64,000 bases of DNA from positions 44,075 to 108,074 of the IMG/VR virus record IMGVR_UViG_3300021961_000040; one strand, written 5' to 3'. This document shows positions 41,933-63,711 of this stretch, piece after piece. Made by a program: the position numbers and the translations under genes. The notes below the pieces were generated by a model that saw nothing but the letters and a program-made list of their open reading frames with translations, had not been told where the DNA came from and made no database searches. Numbering within the stretch: position 1 is the stretch's first letter; each line of letters begins with the position of its first letter. This stretch comes from a virus.

Positions 41933-42259
41933 ATGTTAAACGTAACAGATAGTACATTTAAAGAAGAAGTATTAGATTTTGACGGAACAGTCTTTGTTGA
42001 TTTTTGGGCGCCCTGGTGTGGGCCCTGTAAAGTCATGTTACCTATTTATGAAAAACTAGCAGACACTTACACTTCAGAATCTGTTAAGTTTGTCAAGTAC
42101 GAAGCAGGCGCTGAAGATTGCACACAAGCATTAAAAGAATACGGAATCAGCGGAATTCCTACCTTTATTGCTTTTCGTTCGAGCAGAGATCCTATTAAAT
42201 TTGTAGGTGCCGGCGACTTAGAAGGTTTTATTAACAGGACTTTAACATCTAATGATTGA
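41933..42259 (+). CDS. thioredoxin
   Basis: 108 residues. FVDFWAPWCGPCK with WCGPC at 28-32, GISGIPTFIAF with the cis-Pro. Reduces disulfides, for example of ribonucleotide reductase. Confidence 0.93.
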   Translation: MLNVTDSTFKEEVLDFDGTVFVDFWAPWCGPCKVMLPIYEKLADTYTSESVKFVKYEAGAEDCTQALKEYGISGIPTFIAFRSSRDPIKFVGAGDLEGFINRTLTSND

Positions 42260-43304
42260 TTACGTAGACATCGTATGTGGTTTGTCTTGGGGTGACGAAG
42301 GAAAAGGTAAAGTAACTTCTCACCTAGTTTCAAAAAATGATTATGATTATGTCTGTCGATGGGCTGGCGGCTCCAATGCTGGACATACTATTTACGTAGA
42401 CGGAAAAAAATACAAGACGCATATTGTTCCAGCAGGCGTGTTTCATGGAATCAAGTCTGTAATTGGCCCGGGCTGCGTATTACATGTAGAGTCTTTTTAT
42501 AAAGAACTCAAATATCTTTCAGAAGCAGGTTTTGATACTTCCCTGGTTAAGGTTTCACCAAGAGCACATATTGTAACAGAAGCTCATCGAAATATTGACA
42601 GCGGCACCTATGCAAAAAGGTTAGGCACGACTTCGTCCGGTATTGGTCCTGCTTATTCAGACAAAGCTTCACGTACAGGAAATCGTGCTCAAGACGTCTT
42701 ACCTGAAAATCTACTTTGGAATGAAAAGTTTGATTCTGACCCAAGAGATTCTGACCCAAGAGATCTCGGTGCAAAGATCTTGTGCGAAGGAGCACAGGGG
42801 ATCTGGTTAGATATCGACTGGGGTAACTATCCGTATGTAACGTCATCTAACACACTACCTTATGCTGCCTGCAGCCTTGGATTCCCGCCCCAGAAAATTA
42901 GACAAGTGTGGGGTTGCGCAAAAGCTTATGACACACGCTCAGGATATGATCCTGAATTTCCAGAAGAACTTGCAGAAGACGCACATCTTAGCTTTCTTCA
43001 AGAAGAGGGTCAAGAGTTTGGAGTCACAACAGGACGCAAGCGTGCTGTAAATTGGTTAAATATTGACAGGCTCATTCGCGCTATGAACATGACAGGGACA
43101 ACTCACCTTGTTGTTTCAAAATGTGATGTGCTAGAAAAGTCAGATGTTATAAAAGTAAAGTTTGCTGGGGGTCGTTTTGAACCCGACACTTACATGAAGA
43201 TTCCTTCTATTTCTAAGTTTGAAAGCTTTATTATCAAGCAAATTAGAGAAAACTGTGAAGAGATTAAAACGATCAAGTTTTCTTATTCACCTGAGACAAT
43301 TTGA
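42252..43304 (+). CDS. purA: adenylosuccinate synthetase, short form
   Basis: 350 residues against ~430 in bacteria; the size is nearer archaeal PurA and phage PurZ. GLSWGDEGKGK keeps the catalytic Asp that I recall being replaced by Ser in PurZ of 2-aminoadenine phages, so ordinary IMP plus Asp chemistry is favoured. SNAGHTI, TTSSGIGPAYSDK, EGAQGIWLDIDWG, VTTGRKR follow the family order. The DSDPRDSDPRD tandem repeat marks a shortened linker. Overlaps thioredoxin by 8 bases. Confidence 0.88.
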   Translation: MIDYVDIVCGLSWGDEGKGKVTSHLVSKNDYDYVCRWAGGSNAGHTIYVDGKKYKTHIVPAGVFHGIKSVIGPGCVLHVESFYKELKYLSEAGFDTSLVKVSPRAHIVTEAHRNIDSGTYAKRLGTTSSGIGPAYSDKASRTGNRAQDVLPENLLWNEKFDSDPRDSDPRDLGAKILCEGAQGIWLDIDWGNYPYVTSSNTLPYAACSLGFPPQKIRQVWGCAKAYDTRSGYDPEFPEELAEDAHLSFLQEEGQEFGVTTGRKRAVNWLNIDRLIRAMNMTGTTHLVVSKCDVLEKSDVIKVKFAGGRFEPDTYMKIPSISKFESFIIKQIRENCEEIKTIKFSYSPETI

Positions 43305-46867: not shown

Positions 46868-48079
46868 TTGCATCCAAACATTCGTGAGCTGGTCACGCTT
46901 ATCACGTCCGACATTCGTTCCAACGCTGACAAAAAGGAGAAGTGGGCTGACTTCAAGTGTAACAACGTTGAAGAACTGACTCGCCTGCTCCAGCTTGAAG
47001 GTAAGGGGATGGATAATCCTGGTGCACTCATCGGAATTGACTTCGACGAAGATCGAAAGCTCATGTTGCTTAACTACACAGGTCAGGCACACAACTTCCT
47101 TCACGAGATTGAAGGCGGATGGACTCCCGTTCTGCGGCAGCTTCGTGGTTTGATTGTTGCTTATGATGGCGTGCCTCGAATGGTGTCTCGTGGTTTCGAG
47201 AAGTTCTTCAATTACAACGAGCTCCATGAGTGTTCTGTCGAAGGCTTGTCTGAAAAGTTTGGTGCTGATACAAAGTTTCTTGCACGTGAAAAGGCCGATG
47301 GCCATATGATTGAGTATTTTGTTCACAATGATGAACTCTGTGCTTCGACCCGTGGCAAGTTTGGCACTGCAAGCTCCGATCTTGCAACTGACATGTTCAA
47401 TCTTGAAACATTCAACATCGTTTCTGCTAATGTACCGAACGGCGTCATGTCTATCGTTGTCGAGCTTGTTCATCCTGACACTCGAGTCCATGTTGACTAC
47501 GATAGGTCTCATTTGTTCTTGCTCGCTATTTTTGATAAGGATGGTAATCGGTACAGCAATGAGATTCTTGAATCGCTTTGTGAGCAGCCGGAGTTTTTCT
47601 GCTTTACACCGCCTGCGGCGACAATGATGTCTCTCAACGACATGATTGCTGAAATCAACGATCGTAGTGTCGTTAACAACGAAGGTTGGGTCATGGACTT
47701 CGACGGATACCTTGTCAAGTTCAAGTACATCTCGTACATTGGTGAGATGGTCAAGTCCAAGCTTTCCTACAAATATATCATGAACTGCATGAAGAACGAT
47801 CGTCTCGATAAGATGCTCTTTACTCTGCCCGAAGAGATTCGTGAGGAAGCGTATCGAATGGTTGATGATGTTAAGGCAGCATCTGATCGTGCTATTCGGG
47901 CGGGTACTTATCAGCCACTATACGACTTGTTTAATCCAGACATGGAAGGTTCCAAGGGTTATTTTACTCAGGTTTGTCGGACCTATTGGCACGAGCACGT
48001 GATTCCGAACGGTCTGGATGAGGCTCGCCGAGCTGCGCAGGGTCGACTTCCGGCACTTCCATTTGCATTTGCTGGGTAA
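46868..48079 (+). CDS. RNA ligase, T4 Rnl1-like
   Basis: 403 residues from TTG 46868 (AAAGGAGG site). RQLRGLIVAYDG, SRGFEKFFNY, motif I EKADGHM with nucleotidyl Lys ~142, VELVHPDTRVHVDY, EGWVMDF and VKFKYISY match Rnl1-type ligases. It would repair cleaved tRNAs after host defence nucleases; the phage tRNA set fits. Confidence 0.9.
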   Translation: MHPNIRELVTLITSDIRSNADKKEKWADFKCNNVEELTRLLQLEGKGMDNPGALIGIDFDEDRKLMLLNYTGQAHNFLHEIEGGWTPVLRQLRGLIVAYDGVPRMVSRGFEKFFNYNELHECSVEGLSEKFGADTKFLAREKADGHMIEYFVHNDELCASTRGKFGTASSDLATDMFNLETFNIVSANVPNGVMSIVVELVHPDTRVHVDYDRSHLFLLAIFDKDGNRYSNEILESLCEQPEFFCFTPPAATMMSLNDMIAEINDRSVVNNEGWVMDFDGYLVKFKYISYIGEMVKSKLSYKYIMNCMKNDRLDKMLFTLPEEIREEAYRMVDDVKAASDRAIRAGTYQPLYDLFNPDMEGSKGYFTQVCRTYWHEHVIPNGLDEARRAAQGRLPALPFAFAG

Positions 48080-50038: not shown

Positions 50039-50262
50039 TGAAAGAACTTTATTTGGTAGAAGTTGTTAGATTTGGAAATCCAGATTTGGGAGTGCATGTT
50101 TTCGGAGTTTTTGATGAATTTGAAAAGATTGCACCCGCTATGACAGAATACAATGCCCACAGGGGCGGAATATATCCCGAATATTACGTCACTAGCATCG
50201 GTGTCGTAAATCCTACGGATTCTGAGTTTAATAGACGACATGGATATAAAGTTGAATATTAG
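50038..50262 (+). CDS. small hypothetical protein
   Basis: 74 residues, TGATG-coupled. LYLVEVVRFGNPDLGVHVFGVFD. No family recognised. Confidence 0.45.
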   Translation: MKELYLVEVVRFGNPDLGVHVFGVFDEFEKIAPAMTEYNAHRGGIYPEYYVTSIGVVNPTDSEFNRRHGYKVEY

Positions 50263-51300: not shown

Positions 51301-51322
51301 TTTTAAAATAAAAAGATTTTGA

Positions 51323-51351
51323 GTGTAAAAACACAAAATAGGTTATAAGAT
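51323..51351 (+). promoter_or_regulatory. phage promoter for Y-like RNAs and Ro60-like gene
   Basis: GTGTAA 51323-51328, 17 bases, TAAGAT 51346-51351; transcription would start near 51358, at the 5' end of the structured element. Confidence 0.85.
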
Positions 51352-51364
51352 ACAAAAGTAATCA

Positions 51365-51427
51365 AGGAAGCTAACAGCAATCTTTTACTTACCGCAATTC
51401 TACAAGTAAAATGCTTCCTGTCTTTTT
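51365..51427 (+). ncRNA. Y-RNA-like element A
   Basis: AGGAAGC (51365-51371) pairs with GCTTCCT (51413-51419). An 11-base one-sided loop TAACAGCAATC follows, then stem TTTTACTT/AAGTAAAA (51383-51390/51404-51411) and a 13-base loop. A T-rich tail follows the closing stem. End-to-end pairing plus oligo-U tail is the general Y RNA plan. Element C at 54282 has the same layout with compensatory changes. Confidence 0.6.
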
Positions 51428-51428
51428 A

Positions 51429-51520
51429 AGGGTAGTTACAGCAACATCCAATCAAATGGAGAGAATTGTCTAACAATTCGCACAGTTTGCAAGAGTTCTG
51501 ACAAACTTGCAACCTACCCT
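51429..51520 (+). ncRNA. Y-RNA-like or tRNA-like element B
   Basis: 7-bp closing stem AGGGTAG (51429-51435)/CTACCCT (51514-51520), then TTACAGCAA as in elements A and C. Three inner arms: TCCA/TGGA (51447/51457), GAATTG/CAATTC (51463/51474), TTGCAAG/CTTGCAA (51487/51506). This is a four-way cloverleaf without an anticodon or T-loop consensus. It ends 21 bases before the Ro60-like start. Confidence 0.6.
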
Positions 51521-51541: not shown

Positions 51542-53005
51542 ATGTCGAACACATTTCTCAATTCTATGTCAAATAGTGCACAGACTGCAAACGGCGGGGC
51601 AACCAATACTTCTTCTTTGAATAACTGTGTTGATCTGTTCTTCCAGATTGGAAGTATGCGCAGCAATTCCGAAGAGGATATTCTTGTTGCCTGGACTAAG
51701 GCATTTCTAGAAAATCCTCAGACCGCGCTTAAGATCCTGTTTTGGGCCCGCGATGTCCGCCAAGGCGCCGGTGAACGACGAGTGTTTCGGACAATTCTGA
51801 CTCATTTGGCTGAGCGCAATCCTGAGTTGTTTTCGCAGCAACTCATTGCTCAGATTCCTGAGTTTGGGCGATGGGACGATTTGTTCGTGTTTTTTGGAAC
51901 CAAGCTCGAAGGGCGCGCGTCGAACGTTATTGAAAATGCGCTACAGCGTGGCGATGCGCTCTGCGCCAAGTGGATGCCTCGCGAGAAAGGATCAAAGTTA
52001 CACATCGCTCGAGCACTTCGACGCCACATGGGTATGACTCCGAGAGCTTATCGTAAGACGCTTTCTAACTTGACTGCTGTTGTCGAAACGCAGATGTGTA
52101 ATAGCGAGTGGTCTGACATCAACTACTCACATGTTCCTTCTCAAGCTATGCGTATCTACAAAAATGCTTTTCAGCGAAACGCACCCGAGACTTGGGCAGG
52201 ATATCTGTCGCAGATCGCCTCGGGAGAAGCAAAAGTAAATGCTGGTGCCATTCATCCGCACCAGATTCTGGGTCCTTATATTCGTTGTTCGAATAACAGT
52301 GTAGGATATGGATATGGATCGACGACTTACACGACCCATATTGAACCGGTTCCCCAGATTGTTGAAGAGCAGTGGAATGCATTGCCCGACTGGATGGATT
52401 CAAACAAGGGAGGCATCTTGCCTGTTGTTGACACTTCAGGGTCTATGATGGGGCTTCCCATTGAGGTGGCTGTTTCGCTTGGGATTTACATCGCCGAGCG
52501 CACTGTGGGTCCTTTCCAGAATTATTTTATCACCTTCTCTAATCAGCCAAAGATGCAGAAGATGAATGGAGAAACTCTTCATCAGAAGTTGACTTCTGTG
52601 TGCAGCGCCGAGTGGGGTATGTCTACAAACATTGAAGGCACTTTTGAGGCTATTCTGCATCACGCGACCACTAGCGGTGCTGCTAGCGAAGATATGCCTA
52701 AGACGATTCTTATCCTGTCGGACATGGAGTTTAATGCTGCAGCAAACATTAACGAGACTGCAATGCAGTCGATTCGTCGGCAGTACAACGAGGCCGGATT
52801 CGATCTGCCTAACATCGTTTTCTGGAACCTGAATGCTCGGCTGGGCAACGTTCCTGTGCGCTTCGACGAGCAGGGCACGGCTTTAGTTTCTGGATTCTCT
52901 CCGACTATCATGAAGTCAATTCTGAGTGCTGACAACTTTACCGCTGAAAGCATTATGCGTTTGACGATTGACTCTGAACGATACAATAACATCACTTTTG
53001 ACTAA
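51542..53005 (+). CDS. Ro60-like TROVE/DUF2828 plus vWA protein
   Basis: 487 residues. Residues ~30-250 are a helical-repeat module (ILFWARDVRQGAGERRVFR, LIAQIPEFGRWDDLF, AGAIHPHQILGPYI, compare IHPFHI in Ro60). Residues ~285-480 are a vWA domain with MIDAS DTSGSM (~296-301), ITFS and ILSDMEF. Ro60 and bacterial Rsr bind Y RNAs and misfolded RNAs and work with PNPase. Two Y-like RNAs lie in its leader and it sits in the tRNA cluster, supporting an RNA quality-control role. DUF2828 is the closest family name; RNA binding is inferred. Confidence 0.8.
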   Translation: MSNTFLNSMSNSAQTANGGATNTSSLNNCVDLFFQIGSMRSNSEEDILVAWTKAFLENPQTALKILFWARDVRQGAGERRVFRTILTHLAERNPELFSQQLIAQIPEFGRWDDLFVFFGTKLEGRASNVIENALQRGDALCAKWMPREKGSKLHIARALRRHMGMTPRAYRKTLSNLTAVVETQMCNSEWSDINYSHVPSQAMRIYKNAFQRNAPETWAGYLSQIASGEAKVNAGAIHPHQILGPYIRCSNNSVGYGYGSTTYTTHIEPVPQIVEEQWNALPDWMDSNKGGILPVVDTSGSMMGLPIEVAVSLGIYIAERTVGPFQNYFITFSNQPKMQKMNGETLHQKLTSVCSAEWGMSTNIEGTFEAILHHATTSGAASEDMPKTILILSDMEFNAAANINETAMQSIRRQYNEAGFDLPNIVFWNLNARLGNVPVRFDEQGTALVSGFSPTIMKSILSADNFTAESIMRLTIDSERYNNITFD

Positions 53006-53644: not shown

Positions 53645-53928
53645 GCCTCGATAGTTCAATGGATAGAACACCGGCCTTCAAATAGGAGCCTCATATCGGA
53701 AACGATATGTTGCATACACTCTCAAATTCGGGGAAGCCTTTAAAATGGTAATCCCGAGCCAAGCCCGAAAGGGAAGGTGTAGAGACTTGACGGGAGTGGC
53801 CTAAAAGAATCAATTGATTCTCATGGTTGAGAGAAAGTCCAGACCACAAACAACTTCGGTTGGCAGCGAAAGCTGTAGAGGGTACGCTAAGCCGTAGGTT
53901 CCAGGTTCGAGTCCTGGTCGAGGCGCCA
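53645..53928 (+). tRNA. tRNA-Arg(UCU) interrupted by a group I intron
   Basis: 5' exon 53645-53678 (acceptor GCCTCGA, D-arm, anticodon stem CCGGC, CTT); 3' exon 53887-53928 (CTAA, GCCG, T-arm CCAGGTTCGAGTCCTGG, TCGAGGC, G73, CCA). Joined loop CTTCTAA reads UCU. A second UCU tRNA at 54115 is uninterrupted. Confidence 0.9.
53679..53886 (+). mobile_element. group I intron (tRNA anticodon-loop type)
   Basis: 208 bases. The core resembles the IC3-like introns of Azoarcus tRNA-Ile and cyanobacterial tRNA-Leu: AATCCCGAGCCAAG, CCCGAAAGGGAAGGTGTAG, AGAGACTTGACGGGAG, AGAAAGTCCAGACCACAAAC. The 5' exon ends in U and the last intron base is G. No endonuclease ORF inside. Confidence 0.9.
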
Positions 53929-54198: not shown

Positions 54199-54277
54199 GG
54201 GGTGGTAGCTCAATTTGGTTAGAGCACCTGTCTCATAAACAGGCGGTTTGTGGGTTCAAGTCCCACCCACCCTACCA
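54199..54277 (+). tRNA. tRNA with CAU anticodon (Met or Ile2), copy 1
   Basis: Acceptor GGGGTGG/CCACCCT (G1-U72), anticodon loop CTCATAA, T-arm GTGGGTTCAAGTCCCAC, A73, CCA. Not an initiator (no C1-A72). Could be Ile2 if modified by the TilS-like enzyme. Confidence 0.93.
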
Positions 54278-54281
54278 TTTT

Positions 54282-54350
54282 AGGATGCTAACAGCAAACT
54301 TTTACAAGATATTACCACGAAAATAACAATGTAAATGCATCCTGTTTTTT
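54282..54350 (+). ncRNA. Y-RNA-like element C
   Basis: AGGATGC (54282-54288)/GCATCCT (54337-54343), one-sided loop TAACAGCAAACT, stem TTTACA/TGTAAA (54301/54330), T-rich tail. Same plan and loop as element A, with A-T to T-A exchanges in the closing stem. Confidence 0.6.
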
Positions 54351-54405: not shown

Positions 54406-54491
54406 GGGGCGATGGCGGAATGGTAGACGCGCGGGCCTTAAAAGCCTGTTCTTGTAAGAGAGTGTGGGTTCGAGTCCCATTCGCCCTACCA
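54406..54491 (+). tRNA. tRNA-Leu(UAA)
   Basis: Acceptor GGGGCGA/TCGCCCT (G1-U72), anticodon loop CTTAAAA, variable arm, T-arm GTGGGTTCGAGTCCCAT, A73, CCA. Confidence 0.93.
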
Positions 54492-56592: not shown

Positions 56593-57102
56593 ATGACTTA
56601 CGAATACAAGGTCTCTCACCGAGCCGATGGCTCGGTGGAGTTGGAGGAGTTCTTCAAGGAGGGTCTCCGTCACCGGGAGGGTGACCGACCGGCGTGGGTC
56701 CGTTACCGAGCCGATGGCTCGGTGGAGTTGGAGTCGTTCTGGAAGGAGGGTCAGCGTCACCGGGAGGGTGACCGACCGGCTGTGGTCCGTTACCGAGCCG
56801 ATGGCTCGGTGGAGTGGGAGGAGTTCTGGAAGGAGGGCCTCCTTCACCGGGAGGGTGACCTCCCGGCTGTGGTCCGGTATCGAGCCGATGGCACGGTGGC
56901 GTGGGAGTCGTTCTGGAAGGAGGGTCAGCTTCACCGGGAGGGTGACCGACCGGCTGTGGTCCGGTATCGAGCCGATGGCTCGGTGGAGCGGGAGCTGTTC
57001 TACAAGGAGAATCAGACGTACACTCCGAGCAAGGCAAAGCCTTACGAGGGCAAGACCGTGGAGATTGACGGCGTCAAGTACGTCTTGACGCCTGTGGATT
57101 GA
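56593..57102 (+). CDS. MORN-like repeat protein 1
   Basis: 169 residues: short MTYEYKVSH head, five ~29-residue repeats (core RADGSVE, F.KEG, HREGDRPA), C-terminal tail KTVEIDGVKYVLTPVD. Similar to MORN_2/YwqK-type repeats; ligand unknown. GC far above its neighbours. Paralogues at 59665 and 63760 share near-identical DNA. Confidence 0.75.
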   Translation: MTYEYKVSHRADGSVELEEFFKEGLRHREGDRPAWVRYRADGSVELESFWKEGQRHREGDRPAVVRYRADGSVEWEEFWKEGLLHREGDLPAVVRYRADGTVAWESFWKEGQLHREGDRPAVVRYRADGSVERELFYKENQTYTPSKAKPYEGKTVEIDGVKYVLTPVD

Positions 57103-62788: not shown

Positions 62789-62974
62789 ATGGAAAGCTTT
62801 TGGACAGAGATTTATGCAGCAATCTACCACGCTACTTGCGATAAATGCGGGAAGTCTGGTAACGGGTGGTTTTACATTCTTGACGGAAGTCATGATAACG
62901 GAACGGTCTGTTCTGATTGTCATTCCTGCTTGACTAAATTGCGCTTGAGTGCAAACTTACAACAAGTATGGTAA
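62789..62974 (+). CDS. small zinc-ribbon protein
   Basis: 61 residues; CDKCGKSG...CSDC ribbon with HSC. Its last ~9 codons overlap the next promoter. Confidence 0.5.
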   Translation: MESFWTEIYAAIYHATCDKCGKSGNGWFYILDGSHDNGTVCSDCHSCLTKLRLSANLQQVW

Positions 62975-62977
62975 AAT
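62949..62977 (+). promoter_or_regulatory. phage promoter
   Basis: GTGCAA 62949-62954, 17 bases, TAAAAT 62972-62977, inside the end of the 62789 gene. Confidence 0.85.
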
Positions 62978-62997
62978 ATCTCCACAAGGAGGAAGAT

Positions 62998-63711
62998 ATG
63001 ACTATCAAACTTTTTGAAGTGGGTGGTTCCATTCGGGACGAGCTCATGGGTCTGGAGTCTGCAGATCGCGACTTCTGTGCAGTGTCGCCCAAGGGTTGGG
63101 AGTCTCTTCTCAGCTGGGCAAACAACAAGATGCTTGTCTTCAAGGTCACACCTGAGTTTTTCACGATTCGTGGTTCGCTCGGCCCAGATATCATTGACAT
63201 CGTCATGTGTCGAAAGGACGGCGCTTCGAGTGACGGTCGCCACCCTGACGAGGTGGAACCCGGAACTTTGCTTGATGACCTCGCTCGTCGAGATTTCACT
63301 TGCAACGCACTGGCCCGTCCGGTCAATCGGAATCTCGAGATCATCGGCGAGATTGTCGACCCTTTTGGCGGAGCTGAAGATATTCAGCATCGTCGCTTGG
63401 TCTCGGTCGGAAATGGTCAGGCTCGATTCGAAGAGGACAATTTGCGTCTGCTTCGTGCCGTTCGATTCTCATTGACTAAGTCCATGACGCCCTCTAACGA
63501 TCTTGCGCACATGATTTCTGATCCTCGCAACTGGCAACAGATGATGTCCACTGTTTCTATCGAGCGTGTTCGAGAGGAAATGAACAAGATGTTTGTTTTT
63601 TCCACGGCAGGCACACTTCGATTCATGAACATGCATTTGCCCCGAATTGCTTTCGATGCGCTGTTCGAAGACACGGGCTTGTGGCTCAAGCCGACGCTGG
63701 CAAGGCGCTGA
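62998..63711 (+). CDS. CCA-adding enzyme / poly(A) polymerase-like nucleotidyltransferase
   Basis: 237 residues. FEVGGSIRDELMGLESADRDF gives the G-G...D-x-D core (D23, D25), DDLARRDFTCNALA the second block, EEDNLRLLRAVRF the third, as in class II tRNA nucleotidyltransferases. The C-terminal body is short (full enzymes ~400). It could finish the tRNA-Ala and tmRNA, which lack encoded CCA. Confidence 0.85.
   Translation: MTIKLFEVGGSIRDELMGLESADRDFCAVSPKGWESLLSWANNKMLVFKVTPEFFTIRGSLGPDIIDIVMCRKDGASSDGRHPDEVEPGTLLDDLARRDFTCNALARPVNRNLEIIGEIVDPFGGAEDIQHRRLVSVGNGQARFEEDNLRLLRAVRFSLTKSMTPSNDLAHMISDPRNWQQMMSTVSIERVREEMNKMFVFSTAGTLRFMNMHLPRIAFDALFEDTGLWLKPTLARR

Follow-up and report, generated by a model that had tools for sequence, protein, structure and literature searches.

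Y RNAs pair their two ends into a stem that is bound by a Ro protein, and the part above this stem serves to tether or block a second factor. In D. radiodurans, the Ro protein Rsr is tethered to PNPase by a Y RNA (PMC7790460 and PMC12282133). For YrlA of Salmonella, the tRNA-like domain has been suggested as a possible inhibitor of anticodon nucleases (PMC7790460), and YrlA was reported from bacteria and mycobacteriophages by Chen et al. 2014 (as cited in PMC12282133). According to PMC12282133, the Listeria phage CKA15 expresses abundant unannotated RNAs near tRNA genes and upstream of an Rsr-like gene, which its authors propose to be Y RNAs, and the Rsr-like protein was also detected in purified virions. 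Going by these sources, phage Ro proteins are already known, and some phage Y RNAs (the mycobacteriophage YrlA and the CKA15 RNAs) are known or suspected. For the large DUF2828 branch, no defined RNA partner was found in the literature.

The window analyzed here, a stretch of 64,000 nucleotides of viral DNA, carries three copies (A, B, and C) of a hairpin element, two of which precede a gene for a Ro-like DUF2828 protein, while the third lies among tRNA genes. The features are as follows.

51317-51360, + strand: copy of a repeated leader, TTTTGAGTGTAAA...TATAAGATACAAAAG, just upstream of A (repeat families D2/D3)
51365-51419, + strand: element A, short form, AGGAAGC-TAACAGCAA-(32 nt)-GCTTCCT, then G and a T-run; inner hairpin TTTTACTT/AAGTAAAA; 49.5 bits with the covariance model
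51429-51520, + strand: element B, apparently a degenerate long form, AGGGTAG-TTACAGCAA-(69 nt)-CTACCCT; 33.4 bits with the covariance model
51372-51380 (A), 51436-51444 (B), and 54289-54297 (C), + strand: TNACAGCAA motif, proposed core of the candidate Ro-binding handle
51542-53005, + strand: ro-like gene for a DUF2828/DUF7788 protein of 487 aa with a predicted Ro60 fold and a MIDAS DxSxS
54199-54277, + strand: tRNA-Met(CAT), directly upstream of C
54282-54343, + strand: element C, short form, AGGATGC-TAACAGCAA-(39 nt)-GCATCCT-GTTTTTT; 5' arm 54282-54288, TAACAGCAA 54289-54297, 3' arm 54337-54343; inner stem TTTACA/TGTAAA; 56.8 bits with the covariance model
54406-54491, + strand: tRNA-Leu(TAA), downstream of C

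In all three elements, the handle is made up of a 7-bp stem whose sequence varies, TNACAGCAA left unpaired on its 5' side, and a G after the stem. T-runs lie behind all three. The single-stranded motif of B, TTACAGCAA, is one base away from the TAACAGCAA of A and C. By itself, the motif is not significant in the window (27 matches with one mismatch versus about 22 expected). Folding energies alone would not have proved A and C, whose z values are weak (-1.73 and -1.40, respectively; B, -3.69). It is the motif and the pairing combined that greatly exceed chance, as the pattern scans below show. A sequence-only reading of this DNA had described C as a third copy whose stem changed by compensation, and the three stems listed above agree with that description. 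It had also claimed that the pairing is under selection, a claim that was examined with more homologues.

Viral contigs were scanned with the pattern AGGNNNN-TWACAGCAA-(24-54 nt)-CCTGTTT, which does not demand pairing at stem positions 4-7. Among the matches listed, all four of these free positions were Watson-Crick paired in 124 of 136 viral matches. Bacterial and archaeal genomes, scanned in the same way, gave 116 matches with full pairing in none; these are chance matches and serve as a negative control. Removing redundancy by interior sequence alone left 50 non-redundant hits among the matches listed, 39 of them fully Watson-Crick paired, with many different stems. At stem positions 4-7 of these listed hits, 170 of 200 cells were paired, compared with 118 ± 4.9 when partners were shuffled, although these counts overstate independence because many of the metagenomic contigs come from related phages. 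The compensatory change seen in three copies thus extends to many homologues, in support of the earlier claim. The covariance model (R1) comprises the stem and the motif, in which T8 and A10-A16 are invariant among 47 distinct elements; in the 108-kb record it found no clear copy beyond A, B, and C. BLASTN of A/B or C against phage genomes gave nothing meaningful, and isolate phages were reached only through a pattern-scan relative that bears an anticodon arm. The ends of the elements are predicted to pair as a stem below a loop or module, as is general for Y RNAs. Judged from these sequence comparisons, the repeated hairpin is a real family of candidate small RNAs in phages of many bacterial groups.

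The only Pfam families reported for the window protein are PF25043 and PF11443, with no TROVE match, and its PHROG annotation is phrog_850, "RNA-binding protein". A single-sequence phmmer search against the PDB returned nothing, so profile and fold comparisons were needed. Profile matches, which are weak in sequence, were obtained to the TROVE protein 9l5y (E 1.6e-4) and to other TROVE/Ro60 chains (0.026-0.05). The AlphaFold2 model (pLDDT 86.2, pTM 0.87) has its best structural match in 1yvp (Ro60; Z 19.2, rmsd 4.1 over 408 residues). All nine top matches are Ro60/TROVE proteins, including the Ro60 of Thermus phage phiLo and D. radiodurans Rsr, versus a Z of 12 or less for proteins with only a vWA domain; Foldseek was also run. 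By this model, the DUF2828 protein is predicted to have a Ro fold over its full length. The MIDAS residues D297, S299, and S301 are invariant in 30 sequences. The protein is matched by 682 phage records, and mycobacteriophage records name the gene "Ro-like RNA binding protein".

The element and the protein occur together. DUF2828 was found in 31 of 40 element-bearing contigs, many of which are fragments. In an unselected sample of 47 tRNA-bearing viral contigs longer than 40 kb, picked for neither feature, seven carried DUF2828, six the element, and five both (Fisher p 7.9e-5); one of the 47, the fragment G056, has elements without DUF2828. In addition, 12 isolate phages with hosts from several bacterial phyla were picked by their DUF2828 gene alone, and the covariance model found the handle in ten of them, namely E. 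coli skuden, Mycobacterium Faith1, Vibrio KVP40, Listeria LMTA-57, Sinorhizobium phiM12, Campylobacter CJLB-10, Citrobacter Ci1, Staphylococcus SEP9, Fusobacterium Fnu1, and Erwinia SNUABM_19. By the same model, no element was found in the DUF2828 phages Aeromonas Ah1 and Enterococcus PEF1, or in T4, which is without DUF2828. Arrays of at least two elements adjoin the ro gene in Vibrio PhiImVa-1, LMTA-57, CJLB-10, SEP9, and Faith1, with three elements directly upstream of the DUF2828 gene in LMTA-57. The elements are thus encoded with or near the gene of a Ro60-type protein, as expected of Y RNAs.

The LMTA-57 locus (L410, about 1495-2500) also contains long unannotated stretches upstream of the Ro gene, with promoter-like sites, in which Rfam matched one tRNA and otherwise nothing. 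They are probably structured noncoding RNA and, by position, perhaps correspond to the ~490-nt top-expressed region of CKA15 described in PMC12282133.

Within viral contigs, the elements sit in phage tRNA clusters with a regular spacing. Counted over 143 distinct elements, the start lies 4-9 nt beyond a tRNA end in 80 (at exactly 5 nt in 56), and in 62 the element stops about 10 nt short of the next co-directional tRNA. C fits this slot at its 5' end, starting 4 nt after tRNA-Met. The sequence-only reading was correct in placing C in the tRNA cluster, between tRNA-Met and tRNA-Leu. It had further treated C as separate from the copies near the Ro-like gene; this stands for the location but not for the separateness, as copies in tRNA clusters and copies adjacent to ro belong to the same family across many phages. 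The spacing suggests that copies in tRNA operons are probably excised by tRNA-processing enzymes.

Two further observations concern the tRNA region of the window. The repeated leader upstream of A, about 45-65 nt long (TTTGAGTGTAAAT...TTAAGATATAAAGGTAAGG), occurs at 50259, 51317, 53564, 54043, 54960, and 55821, preceding tRNA groups and A; it resembles a phage promoter in which TTGAGT and TAAGAT are widely spaced. A group I intron (Rfam RF00028, 57.1 bits) lies at 53668-53860 inside a tRNA missed by ARAGORN, with exons at about 53647-53928. Joining the exons gives GCCTCGA...CGGC-CTTCTAA-GCCG...TCGAGGCGCCA, which is probably a tRNA-Arg(UCU) whose anticodon loop holds the intron.

Other genes of the window were noted as well. 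A T4 Rnl1-type RNA ligase (46868-48079) and a poly(A) polymerase head-domain protein (62968-63711), which is perhaps a CCA-adding enzyme, are in keeping with a programme of tRNA maintenance or repair beside the Ro system; no RtcB was found in the part of the genome examined. A tmRNA-like gene at 188-801 scored 82.5 bits with the standard tmRNA model and 52.8 bits with the permuted one and was not called by ARAGORN. The protein encoded at 42252-43304 is a relative of adenylosuccinate synthetase; its best PHROG, of the 2-aminoadenylosuccinate synthetase (PurZ) type, is a hint that the genome consists of 2-aminoadenine (Z) DNA. Four tandem repeats of ~87 bp with inverted GAGCCGATGGCTC cores occupy 56610-57044 within the ORF 56593-57102.

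Copies of the element also occupy the leader of ro. In at least 14 of 31 ro genes (contigs), an element ends no more than 36 nt from the start codon, and in 12 of the 31 it ends 12-16 nt before it, with the Shine-Dalgarno sequence immediately behind the stem, as in ...ACATTCTGTAAAGGTAAAATAAA-ATG; many of these leader contigs are related, so the independent cases are fewer than those counted. In the window, B ends 21 nt before the ro start codon. The position of the leader stem against the Shine-Dalgarno sequence suggests that handle-bound Ro would hinder its own translation, and Ro probably represses itself through the copy just before its gene.

The interior of the elements points to tRNA mimicry. 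Long forms of about 90-127 nt resemble a closed, circularly permuted tRNA, often in the order anticodon arm, T-arm, 3' acceptor strand, short loop, 5' acceptor strand, and D-arm. In the locus L133 (at 792), for example, the consecutive parts are TTCGC-CTTATAA-GCGAG, GTTGG-TTCGAAT-CCAAC, ATTAGGC-TTCAA-GCCTGAT, and TAGCTCATTTGGTAGAGC. The T-arm is present in 34 of 42 long forms, and in most the capped acceptor stem and the D-arm come next. With a loop closing its acceptor stem, the long-form RNA should not be chargeable. This permuted module, which resembles that of YrlA, is absent from A and C; the interior of B has three hairpins in the order of the module and is taken as a tRNA-like module, and B as a degenerate long form, by resemblance only.

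Many short forms retain the anticodon-arm hairpin alone. Out of 83 non-redundant short forms, 39 contain a hairpin of 5 bp and a 7-nt loop versus 10.7 ± 2.8 in shuffles, 27 combine it with U33 and a purine at position 37 (1.9 ± 1.5 shuffled), and 15 have the loop CU-NNN-AA (0.16 ± 0.39 shuffled). The mimicked anticodons include Lys UUU/CUU, Ser GCU, Arg UCU, Thr UGU, Ile GAU, Asn GUU, Met/Ile CAU, Tyr GUA, and Cys GCA, and the identical stems TTTGA/TCAAA and TTAGA/TCTAA recur with differing anticodons. Since A and C show no clear or canonical anticodon arm, the mimicry claim rests on their relatives. These features suggest that the tRNA mimics are interchangeable and serve the phages in protecting or manipulating tRNAs.

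Of the 19 distinct anticodon arms mimicked in L017-L135, 18 have U or A at position 36, a bias that is partly forced by AT-rich sequence and by a filter that demands A37 and that counts as a hint only; tRNAs of these classes usually carry t6A or i6A at position 37. In Vibrio phage PhiImVa-1 (L137, 3074-3315), two tRNA-like modules with two TAACAGCAA motifs are nested, with interleaved acceptor strands, and the annotation of part of this region as a suppressor tRNA (tRNA-Sup-TTA) is probably wrong.

We consider it likely that the elements are phage Y RNAs of a previously undefined subfamily, with exchangeable modules and with the handle as the site for the DUF2828 Ro60-type protein. The 7-bp end stem of free sequence, the unpaired 5' TNACAGCAA, and the G would together form the putative binding site, whereas the upper module could be interchanged among a closed permuted tRNA mimic (long forms), a single anticodon-arm mimic (many short forms), and a plain hairpin (A and C). 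Given that the modules mimic tRNAs or anticodon arms, the RNP would most likely recruit or block a tRNA recognizer, such as an anticodon nuclease, a tRNA-modifying enzyme, or an exonuclease. In a more tentative extension, to which we give well under an even chance, phages of several phyla would share a Ro-based modular system whose constant handle shows exchangeable tRNA fragments, above all single anticodon arms of a chosen anticodon, and thereby captures or repels enzymes that recognize anticodons (for example, defence anticodon nucleases), with Ro controlling itself via the leader copy.

Part of this evidence could also be accommodated by free decoy RNAs, whose anticodon-arm or tRNA mimics would soak up host anticodon nucleases or tRNA-modifying enzymes alone, the Ro-like protein being a mere neighbour. 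The strong mimicry in short forms, the closed mimics, which should not be chargeable, and the repair kit of RNA ligase and poly(A) polymerase/CCA-adding-type enzyme would all suit such decoys. However, the most conserved part is the handle rather than the mimic, the handle tracks DUF2828, and many copies, A and C among them, carry no mimic, making this explanation unlikely. Slightly less probable again is that the elements act only in cis, as a translational operator in the ro leader and as attenuators or terminators within the tRNA operons, and yield no stable RNA acting in trans. This would account for the leader copies that abut the Shine-Dalgarno sequence and for the T-runs after A, B, and C, but it gives the tRNA mimicry no role, and the T-run is missing in many relatives (with tails such as GTGATAAA, GATTAAAA, GGTCATTA, and GTAAGAAC). 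Moreover, many copies are flanked on both sides by tRNAs of the same direction, and a terminator located about 10 nt ahead of the downstream tRNA would silence it. An intrinsic terminator was rejected on the same ground, namely that a T-run does not follow the stem in all members.

That the elements are truncated (armless) tRNAs that decode is very improbable, despite their tRNA-sized slots, 7-bp acceptor-like stem, and anticodon-arm hairpins: CCA is missing after the stem, one stem family occurs with different anticodons, the acceptor stem of the long forms is capped by a short loop, and A and C have no anticodon arm. Ordinary tRNAs, with an open acceptor stem ending in CCA and with D- and T-arms, do not match either, as the short forms have neither arm and the long-form acceptor is capped. 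A mobile DNA repeat or chance similarity can be dismissed, since, for all that several copies occur per genome, the interiors differ almost wholly while the stems covary, and full pairing separates the viral from the bacterial matches listed.

The reading as phage Y RNAs has practical consequences. The handle (7-bp stem plus TNACAGCAA) makes candidate partner RNAs findable by anyone, and such candidates exist in laboratory phages too, namely the Felix O1-like skuden (E. coli K-12) and Faith1 (M. smegmatis). The short forms that display nothing but an anticodon arm give an unusually direct clue to the role of phage Y RNAs, and they bring the long-standing question of Y RNA function within reach of experiment in a fast genetic system.

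Several known systems are related to this locus to different degrees. T4 RNA C and RNA D are also small stable RNAs in a phage tRNA cluster; they were rejected as family members, since T4 has neither DUF2828 nor the handle. The window protein shares with Ro60, Rsr, and the TROVE proteins (including phiLo Ro60, PDB 9l5y) a predicted helical-repeat region and a vWA domain with a MIDAS, and its model matches the structures of Ro60, phiLo, and D. radiodurans Rsr with Z of 11.9-19.2 over 362-408 residues. In contrast to these proteins, with which it has 11-16% identity, it is placed by Pfam in DUF2828/DUF7788 rather than TROVE. The CKA15 RNAs lie upstream of an Rsr-like gene, and in the Listeria phage LMTA-57 elements of this family lie directly upstream of the DUF2828 gene; for CKA15, the available part of PMC12282133 describes neither a motif nor a structure and does not settle what the RNAs are, and the region of about 490 nt that it locates may be another RNA.

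At the gathering level, Rfam gave no match on the elements; with the YrlA model RF02553, the best copy reached 36.5 bits versus a gathering threshold of 69, and none reached it in the window or the isolates. A lax search returned weak YrlA matches, but junctions of two adjacent tRNAs were matched at similar scores, so these were not used as proof. Because RF02553 does not cover the elements, they were not filed under it. Many long forms nevertheless resemble YrlA in the predicted passage from an end stem through an internal loop to a T-arm, an acceptor-like hairpin, and a D-arm in permuted order, as well as in the linkage to a Ro protein gene. They differ in the TNACAGCAA handle and in the anticodon arm that is often added to the phage long forms and is missing from the RF02553 consensus, whereas most phage copies are ~60-nt forms without a tRNA module. 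As far as checked, the new features relative to these systems are the handle, its spread over several phyla, the ~60-nt anticodon-arm forms, the tRNA-operon slots, and the leader copy.
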